A DNA stretch of 34,582 nucleotides from Egibacteraceae bacterium (GTDB lineage: Bacteria > Actinomycetota > Nitriliruptoria > Euzebyales > Egibacteraceae). Positions within the stretch are counted from its first letter, which is position 1. The number at the start of each line of letters is the position of its first letter. Positions 4,865 to 11,925 of the stretch are shown one piece after another. A program made the translations under genes and the position numbers. The stretch spans positions 1 through 34,582 of the forward strand of contig JBBDQS010000072.1 in assembly GCA_040905805.1 (NCBI GenBank), read 5' to 3'. The notes beneath the pieces are model-generated. The model was not told the origin of the DNA and made no database searches. It was given only the letters and a program-made list of their open reading frames with translations.

Positions 4865-5943
4865 GCGCGACGGTGAACCCGCACGGCCGCGACCGGCAGT
4901 GGCGCGGCGTGATCGAGGAGTACCGCGACCGGCTGCCGTTCGGTGACGGCGACGTCGTGACCCTCCGCGAGGGTGGGACGCCGCTGATCGCGTCCGCGGA
5001 CCTGTCCGAGGCCACCGGCTGCGCGGTGTGGTTGAAGTTCGAGGGCACCAACCCGACCGGGTCGTTCAAGGACCGTGGGATGACGGTGGCGATCTCGGCG
5101 GCCCGTGCGGCCGGGGCGCAGGCCGTCATCTGCGCGTCCACGGGCAACACCTCGGCCTCCGCGGCCGCCTACGCCGCCAAGGCCGGGCTGGTGTGCGGGG
5201 TGCTCGTGCCGAAGGGCAAGATCGCTCTCGGCAAGCTCGCCCAGGCCCTCGTCCACGGCGCGCAGGTCATCCAGCTCGATGGCAACTTCGACGCCGCGCT
5301 CAACATCTGCCGCGCGCTGCACGAGAAGTACCCCGTCGAGCTCGTCAACTCCGTCAACCCCCTGCGCATCGAGGGGCAGAAGACCGGCGCGTTCGAAGTC
5401 TGCGACTTTCTGGGACGCGCGCCCGACGTCCACGTCATGCCGGTCGGCAACGCCGGCAACATCACGGCCTACTGGCGCGGTTACCGGGAGTATCAGGCGG
5501 ACGGGCTGATCGAGGCGCTGCCGGTCATGCGCGGCTACCAGGCCGCCGGCTCTGCCCCCATCGTGCGAGGCGCGGTCGTCGAGCAGCCGTCGACGATCGC
5601 GACCGCGATCCGCATCGGCAACCCGGCCTCGTGGTCGCAGGCGCTCGCGGCCGCCGACGAGTCCGGCGGGTCCATCCAGGCGGTCACCGACCGGGAGATC
5701 CTGCGGGCCTACCGACGGGTCGCCCGGGAGGGGGTCTTCTGCGAGATGGCGTCGGCCGCCAGCATCGCCGGCCTGCTGCAGCTGCACGAGGCGGGCGGCC
5801 TCGTCGCCGGCCAGACGGTCGTCTGCGTGCTCACCGGCCACGGCCTGAAGGAGCCCGACTGGGCGATCTCCGGTGCAGCGGTGCCACCGGTGATCGCGCC
5901 CGACGTCGAGGCCGCGGCCGAGCTGCTGGGGCTCGACACGTGA
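4861..5943 (+). CDS. thrC: Threonine synthase
   Basis: PLP enzyme that converts O-phosphohomoserine to threonine. About 360 residues, close to the actinobacterial form: [16 protein letters not shown], then the PLP-lysine motif [11 protein letters not shown] with K70, [29 protein letters not shown], and the phosphate-binding [12 protein letters not shown]. The start is uncertain: TTG 4861 overlaps the hom stop (TTGA) as elsewhere in this operon, while GTG 4873 is four codons in. Neither has a strong ribosome site, so translational coupling to hom is likely. The stop overlaps thrB as GTGA, and the substrate of this enzyme is the product of thrB. Confidence 0.96.
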
Positions 5944-6875
5944 CCGCGGGCCACGGACCCGCCGCGACGCCTGCCCCGGTCGGGGTCTCCGTTCCGGCCA
6001 CCAGCGCCAACCTCGGGCCGGGGTTCGACGCGCTGGCTGTCGCCTTCGACGTGCACCTGTCGGTCTGGACGACCACGCTGGGGGACGAGCGGGTCCTGCT
6101 GGAGGGCTGCGGTGCCGACGAGCTGCCCACCGGCGACGACAACCTGGTGTGGCGGTCCTTCGCGGCGTACTGCGACTGGGTGGGATCAGCGGCCCCCGAC
6201 GTGAGCTTGCGGGCGTCCAGCGCCATCCCGCTGGAGCGCGGCATGGGATCCTCCGCCGCCGCCGCCGTCGCCGGTGTGGCCCTCGCGCGCGAGTGTCTCC
6301 GCGGGGGTGGCAGCGACGCGGACCTCATCCACCTGGTGACCACCTTCGAGGGTCATCCCGACAACGCGGCGGCGGCGCTGCTCGGCGGCCTCGTGGTGTG
6401 CGCAGGCGACCGCTTCGTCCGCCTGCAGCCGGCCGAGTCCCTCCGGCCGGTCCTCTGCATCCCCGAGGCGCGCCTTGCTACCACGGCCGCCCGCACGCTC
6501 CTGCCCGACACGGTGCCCCACGCCGACGCGGCGGCGAATGGCGCCCGCACCGCGGTCGTGCTCGCCGGGTTGACCGGCGCCGCCGCCTGGGAGCCGGCAG
6601 CCATGACCGACGTCCTGCACGAGCCGGCGCGGTTCACCGCCATGCCGGAAAGCGGCCGGCTGGTGGGGGCCCTGCGGACCGCGGGCCTCGGTGCGTGTCT
6701 GTCCGGTGCCGGCCCGAGCGTCCTGGCCGTCGTGGCCGCCGGTGACGAGGCCGCGGTCGCGCTCATCCGGTCGACAGCCGGGGACGGCTGGGCCGTGACG
6801 CCCGCCCGGTGGGACCGCGCGGGCGCGGTTGTCCGTGGGCCCGTGGTGGTCGGTGAGGTCGGCCGCGTCGGATAG
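5940..6875 (+). CDS. thrB: Homoserine kinase
   Basis: GHMP-family kinase that phosphorylates homoserine for threonine synthase. The 311-residue protein has the N-terminal substrate motif [22 protein letters not shown] (first ~45 residues), the ATP-binding glycine/serine loop [30 protein letters not shown], and a C-terminal [13 protein letters not shown] loop. The length is normal. GTG 5940 overlaps the thrC stop by four bases, and this closes the hom-thrC-thrB cluster. A TAGGGT hexamer at 6873-6878 overlaps the stop region and may promote the next gene. Confidence 0.96.
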
Positions 6876-6878
6876 GGT
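6873..6878 (+). promoter_or_regulatory. Candidate -10 element before the phosphoesterase/cDPG operon
   Basis: TAGGGT fits TANNNT and overlaps the thrB stop. It would start transcription near 6885, leaving a leader of about 56 bases before ATG 6941. No -35 match is obvious, so this is weak, but the 65-base gap is the largest between genes in the first 11.9 kb after 246 and is where an operon boundary would be expected. Confidence 0.3.
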
Positions 6879-6940
6879 TGAGTGCAGTCGGAGCGCACCG
6901 CAGCGAGCAGCAGCCAGCGACGACGGGATGCCCCCCAACC

Positions 6941-7762
6941 ATGGTCACCATCGCCCACTTCTCGGACCCGCACGTGGGGTCCCCGCACTTCGTGCCCAAC
7001 CTCCTCAACCGGGTGCTCGTCGAGATCGACGAGCTCGACCCGGATGCCGTCCTGTGCACCGGGGACATCACCGACAACGGGCTGGCGGGCGAGTACAAGG
7101 CGGCCGACGGCTACCTCAGCCAGATCCGCCAACCGCTGATGATGCTCCCGGGCAACCACGACAGCCGCAACGTGGGCTACGTGCATTTCGAGCGCATCTG
7201 GGGACGCCGCTACTGGATCCGCGACGTCGGACCGGTGCGGATCGTCGGCGTGGACTCCTCGGAGCCGGACCTGAACGAGGGCAAGCTCGGCCGCGAGCAC
7301 TACGACTGGCTGCGCCAGGCCTTCGACTGCAAGGCCGAGCTGAAGATCTTCGCGGTGCACCACCACCTCATCCCCCTGCCCGGCACCGGCCGGGAGCGCA
7401 GCACCGTGCAGGACGCCGGTGACGTGCTGGAGCTGCTGCTCGGTGCGGGGGTGCACCTGGTGCTGAACGGCCACAAGCACGTGCCGCACGTGTGGCGCCT
7501 GGAGCACCTCTACCTCGCCAACGCCGGCACCTGCTCGAGCCTGAAGCTGCGCGGGAACGGCCGGCCCTCCTACGCCGTCGTCGAGTACGAGCAGGGGCAG
7601 GTGCGCATCCACCGCCGTCTCCCGTACGGCGAGCGCAGGCTGATCGCCCACTGGAACGCGCGCACCGGCGAGCAGTACCACCGCGAGTTCGAGCCGCTTT
7701 TCGCGGCACCGCTGATCCCGGACGACGACGAGGTTGCGCCGGTCGCCGCAGAGCCGAGCTGA
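6941..7762 (+). CDS. Calcineurin-like metallophosphoesterase (class III cyclic phosphodiesterase-like)
   Basis: A 273-residue dinuclear-metal phosphoesterase of the CpdA/Icc-like type. Metal-site motifs are complete: D9-x-H11 in FSDPHVG, GDITDNG with D42, GNHDS with N72-H73, a HHHL histidine motif near 147, and NGHKH at 176-180. No signal peptide, so it is cytoplasmic. Start ATG 6941 is chosen because homology-like sequence begins at once (MVTIAHFSDPH); a TTG at 6878 in frame adds an unlikely leader. It lies 17 bases before the cyclic 2,3-diphosphoglycerate synthetase and the 2-phosphoglycerate kinase. From that context it might hydrolyse the cyclic product or a related cyclic phosphate, but the sequence alone does not show the substrate. 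Confidence 0.88.
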   Translation: MVTIAHFSDPHVGSPHFVPNLLNRVLVEIDELDPDAVLCTGDITDNGLAGEYKAADGYLSQIRQPLMMLPGNHDSRNVGYVHFERIWGRRYWIRDVGPVRIVGVDSSEPDLNEGKLGREHYDWLRQAFDCKAELKIFAVHHHLIPLPGTGRERSTVQDAGDVLELLLGAGVHLVLNGHKHVPHVWRLEHLYLANAGTCSSLKLRGNGRPSYAVVEYEQGQVRIHRRLPYGERRLIAHWNARTGEQYHREFEPLFAAPLIPDDDEVAPVAAEPS

Positions 7763-7779: not shown

Positions 7780-9147
7780 GTGGCTAGTCCCGACCGCAGG
7801 GCTGTCGTGCTGGTCGACGGCGAGCACTACCCGCCCGTGGTCCGCGCCGCCGTCGCCGACCTGGCGACCAGAGGCATCCGGGCCGTCGCCGCGCTGCTGC
7901 TCGGCGGCACGGAGAAGGTGGCCGGTCACGGTGCGGTGGTCGACGTCGGCGTGCCCGCCGAGTGGGTCGAACGCCCGGGCGACCGGCTTGCGGCGGCGAT
8001 CGCCCTTCGGCGCGTGCTCGACCGTGAGCGCCCGGACCTGGTCGTCGACCTCTCCGACGAGCCCGTGCTCGACGCCCGCAGTCGCATGCATCTGGTCAGC
8101 CACGCCCTGGCCGCCGGGGTGCCGGTCGAGGGGCCGGATTTCCGGTTCACCCCCCCGCCGCGCCCGCGTGTCGCCGTGCGGCCGACCGTGGCGGTCATCG
8201 GGACGGGCAAACGGACCGGCAAGACGGCGGTGTGCGGCGAGATCGTGCGGACGTTCGTCACCGAGGGGCGCACGCCGGTGGTGGTCGCGATGGGACGCGG
8301 CGGCCCGCCCGACCCCCTGGTGATCCCCGCGGGCGGTGACGTCAGTCCGGCGCACCTGCTGTCCATCGCCGACCAGGGTGCCCACGCCGCCAGTGACTTC
8401 TACGAGGATGCCGCCACCACAGGGGCTGCGACCGTCGGGGCGCGGCGCTGTGGCGGGGGACTCGCCGGAGCGGTCGGCTACTCCAACGTCGCCGAGGCCA
8501 TCCGGGCGGCCGAGCAGATGCCCGGCGACATGACGGTGCTCGAGGGCAGCGGCGCTGCCGTGCCGCCGGCGCACGCCGACGCGACCGTCCTGGTCGTCCC
8601 CGCCGACGCCGATCCCGAGCTGCTCGGGGGCTATCTGGGCACGTACCGCCTGTTGCTGGCCGACCTGGTAGTGGTTACAATGTCCGAACCGCCGAGGGCC
8701 TCTCCGGACCGTATGGAGGCCGTTCTCGCGGTCCTCCGCAGCACTTCGCGACAGACGCCAATCGTGCGCACAGTCCTCCGTCCTGTACCGCTTGGTCCGG
8801 TGACCGGCGCCCGCGTGTTCTTCGCGACGACTGCACCTGATGACGTGAGCACGTCGCTGGCACTTGACCTGCAGGACCGTTTCGGCTGCGAGGTGGTCGC
8901 AACCAGCAGCCATCTCGCCGACCGGCAAGCCCTGCGCGCTGATCTGCAGGCGCACGCGTTCGATGTCCTGCTGGTCGAGTTGAAGGCCGCTGCGGTGGAC
9001 GTCGCGGTTCGTGTCGCTACTGCCAGGGGAGCGCGCGTGGTGTTCTGCGACAACCGGCCGGTCGCCGTCGGCGAGGAGGGTGAGGGCAGGCTCGAAGACG
9101 CAATCCGCAAGCTTGGCCGACTGGCCGACGAGCGTTTCGCCGGCTGA
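7780..9147 (+). CDS. cpgS: Cyclic 2,3-diphosphoglycerate synthetase
   Basis: Recognised as the ATP-dependent enzyme that closes 2,3-diphosphoglycerate into its cyclic anhydride (cDPG), a solute and phosphate store of thermophilic methanogens. The 455 residues begin with VVLVDGEHYPPVV (about 10-22), then LLLGGTEK, a P-loop GTGKRTGKT with K148, VVAMGRGGPP, EGSGAAVPP, and a C-terminal domain ending near FCDNRPV. Length matches the roughly 460-residue archaeal enzyme. GTG 7780 has no strong ribosome site. The next gene encodes the kinase that makes its substrate, which strongly supports the call. Activity in a bacterium is an inference. Confidence 0.83.
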   Translation: MASPDRRAVVLVDGEHYPPVVRAAVADLATRGIRAVAALLLGGTEKVAGHGAVVDVGVPAEWVERPGDRLAAAIALRRVLDRERPDLVVDLSDEPVLDARSRMHLVSHALAAGVPVEGPDFRFTPPPRPRVAVRPTVAVIGTGKRTGKTAVCGEIVRTFVTEGRTPVVVAMGRGGPPDPLVIPAGGDVSPAHLLSIADQGAHAASDFYEDAATTGAATVGARRCGGGLAGAVGYSNVAEAIRAAEQMPGDMTVLEGSGAAVPPAHADATVLVVPADADPELLGGYLGTYRLLLADLVVVTMSEPPRASPDRMEAVLAVLRSTSRQTPIVRTVLRPVPLGPVTGARVFFATTAPDDVSTSLALDLQDRFGCEVVATSSHLADRQALRADLQAHAFDVLLVELKAAAVDVAVRVATARGARVVFCDNRPVAVGEEGEGRLEDAIRKLGRLADERFAG

Positions 9148-9179
9148 CGACAGTCTCGAACGGGGCACGCCGAGTAGTG

Positions 9180-10247
9180 ATGGACATCCAGGAGCGGGCA
9201 GGGCGAAGGCCACCGGGCCCCAGCCGTCACGTGACCATCCGTGACGGGAAGGCCGGCCTGCCGTACTCCAAGGGGCTCATGGCCACCTCGGTGATGGCGG
9301 CAGGACTGCCGCCGCACCGCGCCTTCGCTGTCGCCGAGACCATCGAGCAGCGCCTGCACGCCGAGTCCCGCACCGACATCTCCACCGCCGAGCTGCGGGA
9401 CCTGGCCGCCGGCGTCCTTGAAGAGGAGGTCGGTCCCCGGTACGCCGAGAACTACCGGCTGTGGCAGCGCGCCCAGGACCGGCCGGTCCCGCTGATCGTG
9501 CTGATCGGGGGTACGACCGGTGTGGGCAAGTCCACGGTCGCGACCACCGTCGCCGGCCGCCTCGGCATCGTGCGCATCGTCTCCACCGACGCGATCCGGG
9601 AGGTCATGCGCGGCATCTTCACCCGGCAGATGATGCCGAGCCTGCACTCGTCGTCGTTCGACGTGAGCAGCACGCTGCCCGACCTGCCCGGCGGGGTCGA
9701 TCCGGTCATCGCCGGGTTCCGCCAGCAGGTACAGGCCGTGTCGGTGGGCGTCAGCCAGGTGATCCGCCGGGCCGTGCTCGAAGGCACCGACCTCGTCGTC
9801 GAGGGCGCGCACCTGGTGCCCGGGGCCCTGCAGCTGCCGGGAACCGACGAGGCGGTCATCGCCCCCATGGTGATCACCGTCGACGACGAGCAGATCCACC
9901 GCAGCCACTTCGTCGCCCGGGCGCAGGACGCGCGGGGCAGGGGGCGTGCCGGGCCGAGGGCTGACCCACCCCAGGGCGCTACCGAGAACCGGTACCTGCA
10001 GCGCCTCGACTCGATCCGGACCGTCCAGGACTACGTGCGCGCGCTCGCGCTCGAGCACGGCGTGCCCGTCGTGCCGAGCTACAGCCTGGACGCCACGGTG
10101 TCCCGGGTGATGGAGCTCGTCGTCTCCGCGACGACGGACTTCCCGAGCCGCCGGACGTCCGATGAGCCGGGCGACAGTGACGGGCCGGCGGCGCAGCGAC
10201 CGACTGTGAACGCACCATCCCCAGGCACGAACCCCCAGGCACGATAG
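9180..10247 (+). CDS. 2-phosphoglycerate kinase
   Basis: Phosphorylates 2-phosphoglycerate to 2,3-diphosphoglycerate, the first committed step to cDPG. The 355 residues comprise an ATP-cone-like N-terminal domain (about 18-100, with VTIRDGKAGLPYSKGLM) and a kinase domain with P-loop GGTTGVGKST (K117), IVRIVSTDAIREVMR, and the helix region MMPSLHSSSF typical of this family. It is longer than the roughly 300-residue archaeal enzyme because of an Arg/Gly/Pro-rich insert after HFVARAQDA and an extended C-terminal tail. ATG 9180 is used; GTG 9177 is immediately adjacent and a later GTG at 9231 would trim a poorly conserved leader. Ten bases separate it from rho. Confidence 0.87.
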   Translation: MDIQERAGRRPPGPSRHVTIRDGKAGLPYSKGLMATSVMAAGLPPHRAFAVAETIEQRLHAESRTDISTAELRDLAAGVLEEEVGPRYAENYRLWQRAQDRPVPLIVLIGGTTGVGKSTVATTVAGRLGIVRIVSTDAIREVMRGIFTRQMMPSLHSSSFDVSSTLPDLPGGVDPVIAGFRQQVQAVSVGVSQVIRRAVLEGTDLVVEGAHLVPGALQLPGTDEAVIAPMVITVDDEQIHRSHFVARAQDARGRGRAGPRADPPQGATENRYLQRLDSIRTVQDYVRALALEHGVPVVPSYSLDATVSRVMELVVSATTDFPSRRTSDEPGDSDGPAAQRPTVNAPSPGTNPQAR

Positions 10248-10257
10248 GAGCACGCCG

Positions 10258-11925
10258 ATGGACCCGAGCGTCCTCGCCACGAAGCCGCTCACCGAGCTGA
10301 AGAGCATCGCCGCGCAACTCGACATGCGTGGCTACCAGCGGCTCAAGAAGGCCGATCTTGTCGACGCCATCATCCGCGCGGCCAACGGTCAGCAGGCCCC
10401 CGGAGGCGAGGGCGGCAACGGCGCCCGCCCCGCCCCGGCTGCCGACGGCCGCGAGGCCGGCGGGGCCGACAACGGTGATGAGGTCCGGACCCGGGTGCGC
10501 ACCCGCACCCGGGAGCGTGACGGTGCCGACGAGCCGGGGCCCGACGGGGATGGCAGCGGTGACCGCGGTGGCCGTGGCGACGACCCACCTGACGCCGAGC
10601 AGCGGGACCGGGAGGCGCGGCAGGACCGCACCGAGCAGCGAGACGACGACGACCAGGGGGACGGCGACGGCCAGAGCCGTCGGCGGCGCAGTCGTCGTGA
10701 ACGACGTCGTGGCAAGAGCGGTCCGACCGGCGGCCAGGCGCCCGCCCAGCAGCCGCAGCAGAAGGGCCGGTCGGACCCTGAGCAGGCCGGGGGCGAGGTC
10801 GGCGAGGTGCGCACCGGCGTGCTCGACATCCTGCCGGAGGGCTACGGGTTCCTGCGCACCACCGGCTACCTGGCCGGCGACAGCGACGTCTACGTCTCCC
10901 AGAGCCAGGTGCGCCGTCACGGCCTGCGCCGTGGTGACGTCGTCGAGGGGCCGATCCGCCAGCAGAAGGCCAGCGACAAGGTGCCGGGCCTGCACCATGT
11001 GCAGTCGGTCAACGGCACGACGCCCGACGACCACGGCAACTTCCCGTCCCGTCCCGAGTTCAAGGACATGACGCCGCTGTTCCCCGACGAGCGGCTGCGC
11101 CTGGAGACCCCCGACGGGCCGATCTCCATGCGGATCGTCGACCTCATGAGCCCCATCGGCAAGGGCCAGCGCGGCCTCGTGGTCTCCCCGCCCAAGGCCG
11201 GTAAGACCACCATCCTGAAGGAGCTCGGGCAGGCGATTGCCCAGAACGACCCGGACTGCCACGTCATGGTGGTGCTGGTCGACGAGCGCCCGGAGGAGGT
11301 CACCGACATGCAGCGGTCGGTGCCGGGGGAGATCATCGCCTCCACGTTCGACCGTCCTGCCGACGACCACACCGCGATCGCCGAGCTGGCCATCGAGCGG
11401 GCCAAGCGGCTCGTCGAGGTGGGCGGCGACGTGGTGATCCTCCTCGACTCGATCACCCGTCTGTCTCGCGCGTACAACCTGGCGGCACCGGCGTCGGGGC
11501 GCATCATGTCCGGCGGCGTGGACTCCACGGCGCTGTACCCGCCGAAGCGCTTCTTCGGCGCTGCCCGCAACATCGAGGGTGGTGGGTCCCTCACGATCAT
11601 CGCGACGGCGCTGATCGAGACCGGCTCCAAGATGGACGAGGTGATCTTCGAGGAGTTCAAGGGCACCGGCAACATGGAGCTGCGCCTCGACCGGCGTCTC
11701 GAGCAGAAGCGCATCTTCCCGGCGATCGACATCGAGGCGAGCGGCACCCGCAAGGAGGAGCTGCTGATCGACAAGGAGGAGCTGATGATCACCTGGAAGC
11801 TCCGCCGCGTCCTGCACGCCCTCGACGGCCCCGCGGCGCTGGAGCTGCTCATCGACAAGATCAAGTCGACGCGCAGCAACAACCAGTTCCTGGTCCAGAT
11901 CCAGAAGTCCAACCTCCACCAGTGA
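10258..11925 (+). CDS. rho: Transcription termination factor Rho
   Basis: Hexameric RNA-dependent ATPase that ends transcription. The 555 residues hold a Rho N-terminal SAP-like helix region (8-40, [24 protein letters not shown]), a long disordered Arg/Asp/Gly-rich insert (about 45-185) of the kind common in actinobacteria, the cold-shock-like RNA-binding domain ([14 protein letters not shown] onward), and the ATPase domain with P-loop SPPKAGKTT (K316), [14 protein letters not shown] and [17 protein letters not shown] 10258 has TAGGAG 10 bases upstream. It follows the 2-phosphoglycerate kinase by 10 bases, so some rho mRNA may come from the cDPG operon. Confidence 0.98.

Follow-up and report, generated by a model that had tools for sequence, protein, structure and literature searches.

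Three adjacent genes probably constitute a bacterial module for cyclic 2,3-diphosphoglycerate (cDPG), a reading to which we assign a probability of about 0.75. They encode a homologue of 2-phosphoglycerate kinase (2PGK), a homologue of cDPG synthetase (cDPGS), and a metallophosphoesterase (MPE), and lie in a stretch of 34,582 nucleotides (hereafter, the window) that represents one entire contig of a 3.6-Mb, 95% complete source genome. A preliminary description of this DNA had interpreted the first two genes as an operon in an apparent actinobacterium. Both open reading frames are found on the plus strand at the positions given there, with all quoted motifs in place, and the closest named relatives of the window are Euzebyaceae/Egibacteraceae MAGs, in agreement with the actinobacterial assignment. 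Two features lie outside that description, namely the MPE gene directly upstream in the operon and the wide distribution of the genes across the phylum. The genes and their conserved neighbors are as follows:

5943..6875, plus strand: thrB (homoserine kinase), named from the initial ORF reading only; synteny followed by tblastn across loci
6941..7762, plus strand: MPE, a metallophosphoesterase of a cDPGS-linked subfamily (Pfam, motifs, model fold, co-occurrence)
7780..9147, plus strand: cDPGS, 455 aa, GTG start (phmmer to 8ork/8oru, 2e-95; ligand residues)
9177..10247, plus strand: 2PGK homologue, 356 aa, GTG start (ATP-cone plus P-loop kinase)
10258..11925, plus strand: transcription terminator rho, the downstream neighbor and a marker of the conserved locus

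The complete gene order in the window is thrC - thrB - MPE - cDPGS - 2PGK - rho. Because the intergenic gaps are only 17 bp (MPE to cDPGS), 29 bp (cDPGS to 2PGK), and 10 bp (2PGK to rho), an operon is likely. The longest ORF of MPE spans positions 6878-7762 and begins with TTG; the ATG at 6941 is the more likely start. The thrB gene is not thought to be a pathway member and represents an upstream neighbor kept in many lineages. The pairing of cDPGS and 2PGK is seen again in relatives, with identities of roughly 50-84%; chance association is therefore excluded.

By sequence comparison, the product of 7780-9147 is a full-length homologue of the cDPGS of Methanothermus fervidus (M. fervidus). Residues 6-453 align to residues 5-456 of the crystallized enzyme (phmmer against 8ork/8oru; E 2e-95 for 8ork), so that both domains are covered, with 38% identity over the whole length. 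Pfam and NCBIfam searches returned no significant cDPGS model for this ORF, and the assignment therefore rests on the PDB sequences. The predicted reaction is the ATP-dependent cyclization of 2,3-diphosphoglycerate (2,3-DPG) to cDPG.

The product of 9177-10247 combines an ATP-cone (Pfam, 1.2e-05) with an AAA_33 P-loop kinase domain. Its best-fitting NCBIfam models are PRK12337 (E 2.9e-85) and PRK04220 (E 4.9e-80), with scores of 287 and 269 bits that stay below the curated cut-offs of 603 and 343, respectively, for which reason it is called a 2PGK homologue here. The mevalonate-3-phosphate 5-kinase model, PRK12339, fits far less well (3e-19), which places the protein nearer to 2PGK than to that enzyme. 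Thus, both cDPGS and 2PGK match their own families and not an unrelated P-loop family, a possibility that the preliminary description had raised. The 2PGK structure model (pLDDT 79) finds generic P-loop kinases as its only fold matches and so leaves the substrate unsettled; our search found no solved structure of the 2PGK family. The likely substrate is 2-phosphoglycerate, which would be phosphorylated to 2,3-DPG. It should be noted that this substrate is assigned with less certainty than that of cDPGS, because the scores lie below the NCBIfam cut-offs and the family includes mevalonate-3-phosphate 5-kinase.

The distribution of the three genes was determined by a profile search of 296 Actinomycetota genomes, using one alignment query per protein. 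Strong matches (E below about 1e-20 for cDPGS, 1e-15 for 2PGK, and 1e-40 for MPE) were obtained in 160, 160, and 159 genomes, respectively, with all three genes present in 152. cDPGS and MPE occur together in 156 genomes and are jointly absent from 133, cDPGS being found alone in 4 and MPE alone in 3; for cDPGS and 2PGK, both are present in 156 genomes and neither in 132, with 4 genomes carrying only the former and 4 only the latter. Fisher p values are below 1e-70 for both pairings, although they overstate the evidence, as the genomes are related. The covariation of the three genes within families is a more independent sign: the sampled genomes of the window's own family divide into four that carry all three genes and six that carry none of them. 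The enzyme assignments of the preliminary description are thus backed by the sequence comparisons, the ligand residues, the conservation of the operon, and the phylogenetic profile. The setting it gave them proves too narrow, as the three-gene module is spread through Actinomycetota and is not peculiar to a single stress-adapted organism. As separate observations, the MPE profile matches the window's genome three times at E <= 1e-40, the two matches located elsewhere in the genome being paralogues, and one MAG of the same family has cDPGS in three pieces across frames, probably due to sequencing frameshifts.

Gene order was followed in GTDB contigs. A scan with the window's cDPGS alone as query gave no match, and a scan with a cDPGS alignment as query gave 310 relatives, of which the best 80 were kept; the linkage counts cover the 61 actinobacterial loci among these 80. 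2PGK directly follows cDPGS, with the same orientation, in 54 of the 55 scorable loci and overlaps the cDPGS end in the 55th. MPE precedes cDPGS in 49 of 58 loci and is not adjacent to it in the other nine, which belong to some lineages only, and rho is located no more than 4.5 kb downstream of cDPGS in each of the 42 Actinomycetota loci with enough flanking sequence. The block conserved in most loci is thrB - MPE - cDPGS - 2PGK - rho. In one class-level relative, cDPGS and 2PGK are still neighbors but convergent. Among the labels attached to the actinobacterial loci are Acidimicrobiia, Thermoleophilia, Ca. Aquicultor, Ca. Geothermocultor, and Ca. Solincola, and one MAG is filed under the name Slackia; no cDPGS was found on plasmids.

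In a tree of 83 cDPGS copies, a branch with 99/90 support separates all 67 actinobacterial copies from those of archaea, Bacillota, and Neomarinimicrobiota. Together with the shared gene order, this split is consistent with a long presence of the module in Actinomycetota and mainly vertical inheritance. The tree is unrooted and composed mostly of the 80 copies most like that of the window, and so gives no direction for an early exchange of cDPGS between domains. A recent archaeal transfer of cDPGS into the source organism was considered as well and rejected, the actinobacterial copies being placed together and the window's copy with its own family. Where a cDPGS homologue occurs in Bacillota and Neomarinimicrobiota, it is an orphan, in that these genomes contain neither 2PGK nor an MPE of the linked type; the 2,3-DPG ligands are intact in five such orphan copies, which come from MAGs.

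The methanogen phylum was represented by 132 genomes, of which 115 have cDPGS and 113 the MPE subfamily; both are present in 105 genomes, neither in 9, and one without the other in 18, with MPE absent from 10 of the 115 cDPGS-bearing genomes. Part of this discordance looks like the result of missing contigs; one group of neighboring entries has cDPGS and 2PGK without MPE. In most cDPGS-bearing methanogens, 2PGK and this MPE subfamily are present as well, without linkage in the loci examined. The M. fervidus genome, recognized by an exact 452-residue match, encodes all three proteins, with identities to those of the window of 38% (cDPGS), 36% (2PGK, over 286 aa), and 41% (MPE). In nine neighboring methanogen entries (G364-G372), cDPGS is found in none, MPE is missing in eight, and 2PGK in seven, which likely reflects a lineage-wide loss of the module. 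Five other methanogens (G329, G330, G332, G333, and G334) have, beside the full-length 2PGK, a second, shorter 2PGK-like kinase that matches the P-loop half only and has no ATP-cone region.

MPE belongs to the calcineurin-like metallophosphoesterases, as follows from a Pfam Metallophos match (7.8e-19) and from the complete set of five dimetal-binding motifs (DxH, GD, GNHD, HHH, and GHKH). The linked subfamily is further marked by TGRER..DAGD and LRG, a signature with many basic residues. The closest solved folds, as judged from an MPE model with pLDDT 85, are GpdQ and Rv0805, and these matches are consistent with an alternative in which MPE is a co-inherited cyclic nucleotide or glycerophosphodiester phosphodiesterase, so that the pathway would consist of cDPGS and 2PGK only. 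The lack of adjacency in some lineages and the further MPE matches in the genome point the same way. We regard this alternative as unlikely, although it deserves some weight: the profile of MPE is near-perfect with that of cDPGS (156 genomes with both, 7 discordant, 133 with neither), the subfamily recurs, unlinked, in methanogens, and its signature is found in bacterial as well as archaeal copies, with generic PDB relatives reaching no better than about 1e-14. Co-occurrence and gene order, in our opinion, make MPE a candidate cDPG hydrolase or 2,3-DPG phosphatase. A cDPG hydrolase activity was described in the 1990s, and no gene for it was found reported in the open-access literature. A role for MPE in defense, suggested by a weak NCBIfam match to an anti-phage phosphoesterase, was rejected, as PADLOC gave nothing.

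The residues of M. fervidus cDPGS that bind 2,3-DPG, Mg, and ADP are named in the crystallographic study of the enzyme (PMC10690619). E45, K46, K145, R146, K149, T150, D208, E305, T353, E404, and K406 are all identical in the window. Ten of them, i.e., all except E305, are identical in 15 of 15 methanogen copies and in essentially all of 82 actinobacterial copies, the exceptions in the whole alignment being a gap at E45/K46 in one partial copy and an alanine at position 353 in one Neomarinimicrobiota copy; E305 is conserved as E in 69 of the 82 and varies in 13. The alignment comprises these 82 and 15 copies together with 5 other bacterial copies; the 82 were set by exclusion as all remaining rows and include some archaeal loci, which leave the conclusion unaffected. 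The P listed in the paper at position 335 corresponds to F in the reference sequence as numbered here and to L in the window; the nearby P337 is conserved. Thus, every cDPGS ligand residue that can be placed is conserved, and the loss of substrate residues contemplated in the preliminary description is not observed. Identity of only about 38% to the characterized enzymes, 2PGK scores under the curated cut-offs, and the variability of E305 leave some room for the use of a different, related acidic substrate, in which case the product would be cDPG-like, such as a cyclic pyrophosphate derived from some other phosphorylated glycerate or sugar acid. Such a substrate is rather improbable, given that E45, K46, K145, R146, K149, and K406, which lie near 2,3-DPG, are invariant from methanogens to Actinomycetota, bar one partial copy, and that 2PGK is linked to cDPGS in nearly all loci scored.

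Cultured bacteria with cDPGS homologues include Rubrobacter radiotolerans, R. indicoceani, and R. tropicus, which were named by exact plasmid matches within a single family. In R. radiotolerans, cDPGS (44% identical to that of the window) adjoins MPE (56%), with rho nearby. The 2PGK of this species is divergent and unlinked, being 42% identical to the M. fervidus enzyme versus 33% to that of the window; because the divergent kinase lies elsewhere and is closer to M. fervidus, replacement of the kinase in Rubrobacteraceae is suggested. Analyses of Rubrobacter solutes list trehalose, mannosylglycerate, and DIP, cDPG being outside that assay (PMC3505630).

Finally, it is very improbable that 2PGK mainly makes the 2,3-bisphosphoglycerate (2,3-BPG) cofactor of cofactor-dependent phosphoglycerate mutase while cDPGS and MPE only tune a small pool by removing and restoring 2,3-BPG, respectively: the window's genome does have a match to such a mutase above the family cut-off, but a cofactor pool needs no dedicated cyclization, the six genomes of the window's family without cDPGS are also without a strong 2PGK match, Rubrobacteraceae keep the module though only a cofactor-independent mutase is reported for R. 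xylanophilus (PMC2964296), and use of the cofactor-independent type is also reported for cultured Anaerosomatales (PMC9686372).

The preferred reading, a cDPG module, implies the following sequence of reactions. 2PGK would convert 2-phosphoglycerate and ATP to 2,3-DPG. In the next step, the cDPGS dimer would activate the 2-phosphate at the expense of another ATP, and closure of an intramolecular phosphoanhydride would give cDPG at an overall cost of two ATP. The dimetal MPE would then most likely open cDPG or dephosphorylate 2,3-DPG, a step that would return carbon and phosphate to central metabolism. The preliminary description had suggested that the solute may be made under salt, heat, or desiccation stress. 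Heat protection alone is unlikely to be the general role of the module, because many apparently non-thermophilic lineages carry it; their labels point to soil, groundwater, and sediment, among other settings in which heat is not evident, and include a Microthrix-like bin, as far as habitat can be read from titles. At least as likely as thermoprotection, and a better fit, would be service as a general store of phosphate or phosphoglycerate, or as an osmolyte, so that cDPG may be a charged solute and a reserve of phosphate or energy; a role as phosphate and carbon reserve has been proposed for cDPG in Methanothermobacter (PMC1224877). More tentatively, and with somewhat less than even odds, we suggest that the complete 2PGK-cDPGS-MPE module operates in much of Actinomycetota as well as in methanogens, that MPE is the cDPG hydrolase, and that cDPG is a general phosphate/phosphoglycerate reserve and not a speciality of hyperthermophiles.

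The occurrence of cDPG has been stated to be exclusive to hyperthermophilic methanogens (PMC10690619; similarly PMC12136491), and cDPG synthetase genes have also been noted in Nitrosocaldales (PMC7819960, PMC7554672). We found no report in the open-access literature of cDPG or the three-gene module in bacteria, nor of a cDPG pathway in Actinomycetota. Database annotations elsewhere may already carry the enzyme names; the novelty therefore lies in the extent of the distribution, the conserved operon, and the third gene. With the genes in about half of the sampled genomes, a compound reported from archaea only may be made by many ordinary bacteria, and, if roughly half of the sampled actinobacterial genera can produce it, its textbook description as a thermoprotectant will have to be revised. 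cDPG would then be open to study in cultured bacteria such as R. radiotolerans, the linked MPE provides a concrete candidate gene for the degradation step, and enzymes of non-thermophilic actinobacteria would serve the manufacture of cDPG, for which efficient production is sought (PMC12136491).

Comparison with known systems places the window's proteins as follows. Its cDPGS differs from the M. fervidus enzyme (8ork, 8oru; PMC10690619) in being bacterial, only 38% identical, and part of an operon with 2PGK and MPE, an arrangement not seen in the methanogen loci examined. 2PGK resembles its M. fervidus counterpart in the combination of ATP-cone and P-loop kinase, and differs from it in scoring below the NCBIfam cut-offs, in a C-terminal extension, and in the linkage to cDPGS. 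MPE has the dimetal calcineurin-like fold and the metal ligands of the class III phosphodiesterases Rv0805 and GpdQ, whereas identity to these is about 20%, and MPE has its own basic motif (GRER, LRG) and tracks cDPGS. The reaction proposed for MPE is that of the cDPG hydrolase of Methanothermobacter, and the MPE subfamily is present in genomes of the methanogen sample that appear to be Methanothermobacter. That activity was described as membrane-bound (PMC1224877), for which the soluble MPE is no obvious match, and we propose only as a hypothesis that MPE is responsible for it.
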